A stretch of 64,000 nt of DNA from Muricea muricata. Taxonomy: Eukaryota; Cnidaria; Anthozoa; Malacalcyonacea; Plexauridae. Both the position numbers and the translations under genes were made by a program. The notes under the pieces were generated by a model. That model had not been told where the DNA came from and did not search any database. It saw only the letters and a program-made list of their open reading frames with translations. Position 1 is the first letter of the stretch. The number at the start of each line of letters is the position of its first letter. The stretch lies in the NCBI GenBank assembly GCA_963855995.1, contig OY979720.1, forward strand, positions 17,692,139-17,756,138. Direction: 5' to 3'. Shown here in pieces: positions 44,732 to 47,700 of the stretch.

Positions 44732-47700
44732 TTAACCTCGGCGGGATCGTCGTCGTCTAACTGTTCTCCGGCGGGCCCTTCTCGCGCGGGTTCTTCTCGC
44801 GCGGGCCCTTCTCGCGCGGGTTCTTCTTGCGCGGGTTCTTCTCGGGCGGGTTCTTCTTGCGCGGGATCTTCTCGCGCGCGATCTTCTCGCGGGGGGTCTT
44901 CTAATTCGGCGTGGAGTTGGAGTAGTAGTGGCGCGGGTAGAAGGGGAATTGGAACCAGTTGCTACCGTGATCGATGCTTTTTGATTGCGGTTACTGAAGT
45001 TGTTGTTCCTTGTGCCCATGTATTTATACGACCCAGGTGAAAACGACAAGACAACCGAGAACGAAGCTGGCGAGTTATCGAGTTCATCTTGAAATTGAAG
45101 CCTGCGATTCACTGCACCTAATGTGATAAAGAGAGTACATTATTTTTACAGTTGTACATGCATGACAAAATTACTGTACGTTTGATGTGTCATGGGACAG
45201 AGCAATCGAATTTTAAGATCGGAGAGCGAAAACGATGCAAACATACTTGGAGAACATATGCAAGGTGACGCACCAGAAAGCAAAGAAGGAGGACTAGGTA
45301 GATATCGATAAAGCGAATGCTTGCCCTTTACTGGCCATGATGAGCATAATATTGGTTAAACCAAACATTGGTTCAGACGGATTAGCCTGTAGTGCATTAT
45401 TAATTTCACATAATTTATAAAAAAACCGCATAATTCACACATTTTTTCTGAACTCTATAATATTACCGACGAGCCGGGCTCAAAGGTAGGGTGGGCATCT
45501 TCTGATCCCCAACCCACTTAGTGCTTAAAAACGTGATAGTTGGTTAAAATATTGGTGGAGAAAATGCTCTTCGCACACAAATTTGGCAACAAAAATGTAA
45601 CAACATGCTTCCTATTTTCTTGCGTTATATATTGATGTGCAACACAACGAAAGTCACTATGATGAGTTTTATAATTAGACATAAACATTTTTTACCAAGT
45701 CGCTGTTGTTTTCCCTTGAGGAAATCAAATCCTGAACTCGCAAGAGCAATTCCAACGTCCTCCATTGATTTTATATATTTATCGGGCGTCCATAGCAGCT
45801 TTGCATCACTGATCATTTTGCCGTCTGTTTTAAACTTGACATTGATTCCTGAATCGTCAATTTCCACCATATTACTTTTATCGCTACCTAAAAAATGAAC
45901 TTTTGTCACATCCAGCTGATCTGAAAGCGCGAGTAAATTTTTTCCTGTTTTTAATAATGCAAACCTCAGTTATTTTTATCATTGCTTTCTTAATTCTGAC
46001 TGGCAACTAAAAACATTACTTAGCTGCAAATAATGCTCCGAGCATGCGCATTGTTTTCAGTTTTGCCAACAATAGCTGCTTAAATTTGAATTTGAAATCA
46101 AAAGTTTTGTGTGAAAAGCTTGTTGTCCCTAGTTATAAAGTCATATAAGAAGTTTGGCAAGAGAGTGATAAAACATCATTTCGCAGATCAATTATATGCC
46201 TCTACCTTCGGCATGGGAGATAATTGATCTGCTCGCCATTGACAAATTACGACATTTTGCTCAACCTCGTTCAATAATTGATTATCATTTACGGGTACTA
46301 GATATGTGGGGAGGGCCATATGTGTTTGAGCCGATCACAAAATAAAGAAATGAGAATCAGATAAATCTGACATCAAAATATTGCTCACAATAAATTTCAG
46401 ACAACCTAAGTTTTTCTTTCAAGATTGTGAGTTGCGCCTGAAAATATTCTTAATTCGTGGTTTATCGATTTCGTCGCTTTTGTTGCACCTATTCACATGC
46501 ATACTGTACCTGCTCTTCCTTGCCCATCATTATTGCCAGGGTTTGAACTAGAGCCTACAGAAGCATGCAAAATTATATCATTACTATCAATAAATCTGGT
46601 GTTTACCATAGTGGTACGCAGAAATTATTGGTACGGTAAATGACTAATTGCATTTGGTGAAGTGCACTTTGGTCTGAAATGAAAAGCGTATCTACCGAAA
46701 ATCAACTGGTAATCGCAAATAGTTAAAATTCAGATCAAAATTGCACGACCCGGAGGATGGTTATTTATGTAAAAAGAGGAAGCACATGGTCAGGTCATGT
46801 TTACGAATGCTATGGTCATGTTATGCTGTTTTCCGGAACGATAGGGTTGTGTGTTATGTTCGTTAATTAAATATAGTTTATTAATCACTTATTACGTTTA
46901 TCCACCATCTTGGATTAATTATATATAAGTCTTAAAGAATCAATCTTTTAGCCTCAAAAATCTCTTATTAAACGTTGACAGCGTTTTCCTTGAGGAAAAC
47001 TAAATTACTTATAATTCTTACCTGTCCATTGGATATGAACCGCATCATTGCTCGTACAATTTAAGTCTTTCGGCACGAAGTCGTACTCAACCGCCGGGTA
47101 GACCTGAACAATGTTTCCACGTTTACCGCGAACATTGAGATTATAAACAGCGATATCATCTGCAATACTGGTGCCTTTCCTTGGTCTCAAAATCATCACA
47201 TGGCTTCTGTCTTGGAACGTCCTACCAAACTGGGCTGTGTTTACGGCCAGTTGCAATTTGAATTTTATATCTTCCGACTTGGTATTAAATGCTACTTCTG
47301 GATTATTTTTTACAGGTGAGCTTCAATGATACAAAACATGGAAGAAGGTATGAAAGATGTCAATAAACAATAATAAGAGCATACAGATATCAGTGATCAG
47401 GAAATAAATTCCTACTTACTTGGCGCCATTCTTATCGCTGAAGGTCCGATTTCCATCATAATCATAGGTAGAAATGTTATACCTTATTCTAACCACACAA
47501 CGCTTTTCTGTTTGAGATGGGAAGTATGGTATTATCCAGGTGTAGTTCATGTTCTCCGCATCTTGAACATTCCCTAGGTGATTAGGACGAGATAACGGTG
47601 AAACGCGACAATCAACTTTAGGAGGTTGCACCAAGCATGACGCCTTGGGTTTCCTGGTGACTTCGTCAATTTCCAAACCGTCAACATACTCCGACATGTA

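Follow-up and report, generated by a model that had tools for sequence, protein, structure and literature searches.

A gene of the DD3-3 family in the genome of Muricea muricata, here called copy A, runs past the point at which its relatives usually stop and into a 15-bp minisatellite that would specify an arginine-rich C-terminal tail. The gene lies in a window of 64 kb, the whole stretch of DNA analyzed here. We describe the feature as a polybasic extension in one member of a known family, probably translated and with a putative function, and the tail is likely to be a young addition to the protein. By analogy with another secreted protein (see below), we tentatively propose, at somewhat less than even confidence, that it serves as a polybasic tag for sulfated matrix on a secreted DD3-3-type protein and is trimmed by convertases.

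DD3-3 proteins are common across invertebrates and are little understood, and a tail that might anchor or release one of them offers a handle on its site of action. The locus also makes a clean case for following how a protein gains a part from repeat DNA: a single C-terminus among the 18 has changed, no second site was found for the repeat, and the physical property of the added part is strong and measurable.

Copy A is a DD3-3-like gene

The gene model of copy A has GT-AG boundaries at all nine introns and comprises 740 codons without an internal stop. Its parts are as follows.

52239-44732, minus strand: copy A, DD3-3/HrSMLP1-like gene, ten exons, 740 aa, one frame to TAA
52239-52072, minus strand: exon 1, signal-peptide-like start followed by an HrSMLP1-like N-terminus
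51306-51226, 50371-50170, 49182-49027 and 48574-48359, minus strand: exons 2 to 5
47897-47420, 47320-47022, 46554-46510, 45887-45696 and 45117-44732, minus strand: exons 6 to 10

The family is DD3-3, whose ascidian member is named HrSMLP1. The family N-terminus, D-x-Y-[ML]-x-NPRGSN-[ND]-RL, begins after 25 residues of copy A and agrees with the N-terminus of HrSMLP1 obtained by Edman degradation, DMYMQNPRGXNNRLNEN, as given in the available text of PMC6916515. Copy A also resembles HrSMLP1 in combining a signal peptide, called in copy A by eye and by hydropathy, with an NPRGSN-type N-terminus and a long cysteine-bearing ectodomain, and its five N-glycosylation sequons compare with five sites reported for HrSMLP1 in the accessible part of that paper (PMC6916515).

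Three copies in the window, A, B and C, align with one another over their length, at 46-49% to A. Beyond the first 30 residues the best 19-residue mean hydropathy is 0.75 in A, 0.89 in C and 0.71 in B, and by this measure none of the three has a transmembrane helix there. A signal-peptide-like start and the lack of a strongly hydrophobic segment downstream suggest that copy A is secreted, and the match to the HrSMLP1 N-terminus further agrees with the initial annotation, which had taken the product to be a secreted protein. A knock-out of the Dictyostelium gene was reportedly described by Sakuragi in 2005.

Pfam searches of copies A, B and C up to an E value of 1 returned a sole match, to API5 in copy A (E 0.61), under the cut-off, and the best match among solved structures had an E value of only 0.21. 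Two peptide patterns gave 63 pattern matches in viral collections and 50 in prokaryote collections, with no confirmed relative in either, and no Rfam family matched at the gathering threshold anywhere in the 64-kb window. A structure prediction for the last exon of copy C was set aside (mean pLDDT 46.9).

The tail is built from a 15-bp minisatellite

In copy A, 84 residues follow the shared motif TRNNNFSNR and include 37 arginines in total. All 37 fall in the last 76 residues, after QKASITV, where arginine accounts for 49% and acidic residues are absent. The initial annotation had counted 76 residues with about 36 arginines, which our measurement bears out, although the span it gave, 44732-44925, is too short; the 76-residue tail and its stop codon occupy 44732-44962. 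Its attribution of the tail to a 15-bp minisatellite also stands, with nine units in codon register and two decayed ones. The last exon is divided as follows.

44963-45117, minus strand: conserved part of the last exon, with Gly in place of a Cys that all 17 other copies share
44903-44962, minus strand: Ser/Thr/Pro-rich linker, 20 residues
44768-44902, minus strand: 15-bp minisatellite, nine units in codon register
44735-44767, minus strand: two decayed units and tail end, 11 residues, the final one G
44732-44734, minus strand: stop codon TAA

The consensus of the nine units, read from 44902 to 44768 on the minus strand, is AGAAGAACCCGCGCG, which encodes RRTRA, so that each unit adds about three positive charges. 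Tandem Repeats Finder reports period 15 at 44778-44902 and period 30 at 44764-44902. The repeat stands out from chance, in that a G+C content of 58% is reached nowhere else in the 64 kb (120-bp windows every 20 bp), the window as a whole having 36%. The repeat-derived part of the tail amounts to 56 residues, 34 of them arginine. R-X-[KR]-R motifs are concentrated here, with 11 overlapping occurrences in the tail (seven being RARR) versus a single one in the other 656 residues.

The array shares with coding minisatellites and VNTR proteins a tandem unit whose length is a multiple of three and whose frame is kept. It departs from that class in that the unit was found at a single locus, where it forms the extreme end of one of the paralogues.

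A single C-terminus among 18 has the tail

We searched the genome (453 Mb in 74 contigs, a single assembly) with the last exon of copy C and found 17 places, all 22 candidates having been scored; the counts are lower bounds. Copy A, in which an intron interrupts the last exon, is absent from these 17 matches, and with its addition 18 C-termini were read. The relatives within the window are listed here.

29542-39853, minus strand: copy B, DD3-3-like, tail-less, read save for one region after exon 6
13068-23610, minus strand: copy C, DD3-3-like, tail-less, ten exons, 640 aa, open
1-2475, minus strand: copy D (L009), a fourth DD3-3 gene, first exons inside the window and end about 4.9 kb before it

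The arginine tail, which the initial annotation had found in copy A and missing from B and C, is confined to one of the 18 last-exon C-termini read. Sixteen of the 18 stop 9-19 residues past the shared motif (14 residues in copy B, 9 in copy C). Three of these last exons, on C1 at 97.546, 97.699 and 97.834 Mb (L003-L005), specify an identical protein in this stretch and so are not independent members of the 16; they lie about 153 and 135 kb apart, an arrangement that may reflect recent duplication or an assembly effect. L047 and L048 are likewise alike in the C-terminal stretch.

A distant relative on C8 (L050, L051) continues instead through two in-phase GT-AG introns, their junctions read by eye, to a hydrophobic helix with a mean hydropathy of 3.55 and a basic stretch after it. 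Since the match spans only 26 residues (E 8.2e-4), this relative may not represent the ancestral form.

Ends of tail-less copies carry, for example, net charges of +3 (L042, L043 and L044), +2 (B), 0 (C and D) and -1 (L041 and L046). With mildly basic ends standing beside neutral and acidic ones, there is no firm family trend toward basic C-termini. The available text of PMC6916515 makes no mention of an arginine-rich tail. The same is true of the other DD3-3 literature searched, in the portions accessible and mostly outside subscription journals, and nothing matching this case appeared in the accessible literature on arginine-rich minisatellites and convertase-cut tails.

Intron positions also vary among the copies in this region. 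An intron at 45117-45696 in the C-terminal domain of copy A is absent from B and C, and copy C has an intron at 16968-17292 that is absent from A. A further copy, L045 (C5:17910332), lies on the opposite strand and closely resembles copy D; in its RNNNF motif the Arg is replaced by Cys.

The tail is probably translated

We judge that the tail is probably translated, an estimate that depends on the gene model of copy A. Alternatively, the repeat might not be read in the arginine frame, because the transcript terminates, is spliced or changes frame before it or because the assembly contains a frame error; we consider this unlikely. The initial annotation had named transcripts that end or splice before the repeat as an outcome that would overturn its reading, and the sequence offers neither a plausible donor nor an earlier AATAAA or ATTAAA for such a message.

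Splice sites were scored against the 21 donors and 20 acceptors of copies A, B and C, with each donor left out in turn. Genuine donors score 2.8-11.9 in this leave-one-out scheme (n=21). Between the motif and the stop codon, GT dinucleotides score -3.2 (44994), -0.4 (44965), -0.2 (44955), -1.4 (44761) and 2.7 (44736), the best of these overlapping the stop codon itself. By this scoring the stretch from motif to repeat is free of plausible donors, the GTs ahead of the repeat falling under all 21 donors, and AG sites inside the repeat reach at most 0.3. From the last acceptor to the stop of copy A there is neither an AATAAA nor an ATTAAA, and the first past the stop codon follows at 185 nt. In copies C and B a signal of this kind comes 167 and 48 nt past the stop. 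A GT at 45029, 5′ of the motif, scores 1.5 and AG sites 3′ of the stop reach 6.5. These leave some room for an unusual splice, which counts in favor of an untranslated repeat, as does the reliance on a single assembly.

Other reading frames through the repeat bear on the same alternative. The minus-strand +1 frame yields an acidic EEPAR repeat that is open for 108 aa (44961-44635), and the +2 frame reads as a repeat of mixed charge. The frame of copy A is nevertheless fixed by the conserved domain, and we rejected the acidic frame as the true coding frame given that it has no Pfam match and no exon was seen entering it. A pyrimidine-rich tract ahead of ATTAG at 44900 would suit a mini-intron from 44965 to 44900 that shifts to the +2 frame. 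This candidate was also rejected, its donor score (-0.4) being under all 21 donors and its acceptor score (-0.7) under 18 of the 20 acceptors of copies A, B and C.

Openness of the frame carries little weight by itself. The 15-bp unit contains no stop in any of its six frames, and an open frame is therefore expected rather than being evidence of coding. Of 14 departures from the consensus, 5 are synonymous in the arginine frame, and the other two frames give 4 and 2; the fractions expected without selection are 0.289, 0.267 and 0.200, or about 4 of 14 in the arginine frame. Counts so near expectation give no sign of selection for the arginine frame. Selection in the repeat, which the initial annotation had put forward as a check, thus left no signal either way, the units showing no excess of synonymous change.

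Origin of the repeat and its 3′ flank

Several relatives end in IKVTRG-stop, IKVVEG-stop or IKVTIE-stop at the place where copy A reads on. The sequence fits a history in which the stop was lost and the repeat then grew in the former 3′ UTR, the order of the two events being our inference.

The array appears to be private to this locus. In a genome search that passes over simple repeats and highly frequent words, the 316-base segment 44655-44970 matched nothing but itself. A probe of 20 bases from the unit, allowed up to 3 mismatches, matched 22 times genome-wide; all 8 matches with 0-2 mismatches sit in the copy A array, and the remaining 14, all with 3 mismatches, equal the 14 obtained with a reversed control. 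The idea that the tail is part of a transposable element found no support, in view of these 316 bases and of a dispersed element that lies 3′ of the stop and does not include the tail.

44514-44640, minus strand: MITE-like dispersed element, just 3′ of the stop codon, present on many contigs
44542-44547, minus strand: AATAAA, 185 nt past the stop codon, within the MITE-like element

The MITE-like element was scored at at least 40 places among 178 candidates, with the query counted. Seven of nine aligned copies have a 3′ terminal inverted repeat in which 26-31 of 34 bases match the 5′ reverse complement; it is missing from L037, L038 and the copy in the window. The AATAAA in the window copy may end the message of copy A; its location in a dispersed element weighs against the matrix-tag proposal. 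This signal is absent from the aligned stretch in seven of nine other copies; L037 has two, elsewhere in the element, and L033 has one beyond it.

Farther into the 3′ flank of copy A, positions 43929-44201 share a partly self-complementary repeat with an intron of copy C (21399-21693), at 76% over 297 bp.

Copy A diverges at conserved positions

Constraint was compared among six of the 18 copies. At the C-terminus copy A differs at 6 of 27 positions that are invariant in the other five, and the same count for each of those five gives 0 to 3 differences of 21-24. In exon 7 the figures are 5 of 49 for copy A and 0-3 of 44-47 for the others. Just before [TS]RNNNF all 17 other copies have retained a cysteine, and copy A has Gly. 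Except for this leading Cys, copy A matches C-[TS]RNNNF-x-NR-x-QK, a motif derived from the copies of this genome and not from a publication; L043 and L045 each differ from it at one other place. Copy A also has a cysteine at position 522, in exon 7, that none of the other five copies in the comparison has. The divergence of its C-terminus may reflect relaxation or a new role.

These observations bear on the main rival to the matrix-tag reading, which holds that the tail is translated and tolerated as a by-product without a role: a stop was lost, a GC-rich minisatellite grew, and proteases remove the result. We regard this as a serious if somewhat doubtful possibility. It would account for the missing excess of synonymous changes, for the loss in copy A of a cysteine kept everywhere else and of more invariant residues than in any of the five relatives compared, and for a tail found in one of 18 C-termini on DNA with no second copy found. 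Against it, ten open exons with GT-AG sites indicate that the gene is not plainly dead, and 34 arginines have been retained without a stop, although stops do not arise easily in such a unit.

Possible roles of the tail

The reading of the tail as a matrix tag takes its model from SOD3 (EC-SOD). According to the accessible text of PMC12774472, the C-terminal RKKRRR of SOD3 has affinity for heparan sulfate proteoglycans and for other matrix; furin cleaves this tail before secretion, and a carboxypeptidase can take off the rest. Copy A likewise specifies a secreted-type protein with a polybasic C-terminus that includes furin-type sites, in its case by motif only. SOD3 differs in that its basic block, RKKRRR, is short and single and in that it has a Cu-Zn SOD domain. 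Copy A has nine repeat units with two decayed units behind them, and Pfam, which gave no domain above threshold, found no Cu-Zn SOD domain in it. The comparison is one of likeness of working and not of membership.

The reading frame of copy A passes the usual stop of the family into the locus-private minisatellite, and on this model the tail would be translated and carried into the secretory pathway. There, furin-like convertases would cut at the overlapping R-X-[KR]-R sites and carboxypeptidases would then trim the ends. By electrostatic attraction an uncut tail would keep the protein on sulfated glycans, either at the cell surface or in the matrix; a cut tail would free it, and the number of repeat units would set the strength of the tag. 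Glycan binding and cleavage are predictions from motif and charge, and release of basic peptides would fit the many convertase-type sites.

The tail is placed where the C8 relative runs to its hydrophobic helix, and Dictyostelium DD3-3 is handled as a single-pass membrane protein in the available part of PMC10022678. From both we infer that the tail may have taken over from a lost membrane anchor, the minisatellite having perhaps rebuilt surface attachment once that anchor was gone.

Three further roles deserve mention. The tail could be a pro-peptide cut into short arginine-rich antimicrobial or signaling peptides, which we hold to be very unlikely. Evenly spaced R-X-R-R, mostly with S, T or A behind, would release five-residue pieces, and DD3-3 genes are discussed, in the accessible portions of the literature, in the contexts of sponge immunity and ascidian allorecognition; yet five residues are short for an antimicrobial peptide, and a hydrophobic face is absent.

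More speculative still, copy A could act as a length-coded self-marker, with inherited, charge-graded surface or matrix forms that differ between individuals; we rate this a long shot. The pattern of HrSMLP1 isoelectric variants tracks allorecognition by ascidian hemocytes, and amino-acid substitutions in HrSMLP1 are unrelated to allorecognition, with glycan differences suspected, as described in the accessible text of PMC6916515.

Least credible in our estimation, and given almost no weight, is a tail that binds mineral or nucleic acid. Its appeal is the chemistry of polycations. These can bind silica, phosphate and nucleic acids. No skeletal or nuclear context was met in passing, nor any sign of the biomineralization that the initial annotation had raised, and the signal-peptide-like start of copy A argues against a nuclear role.

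Other features of the window

An intron of copy B (30063-30690) contains about 105 copies of CATCAC, which end about 20 bases before the exon start at 30044. Within an intron of copy C, reverse-transcriptase-like reading frames were recognized by eye on the plus strand (14293-15523). Also on the plus strand, a bHLH-type reading frame at 6287-6919 (Pfam HLH, E 8.1e-12) holds 2.9 tandem copies of a 66-bp unit in frame, which is likely a second coding minisatellite within the 64 kb.
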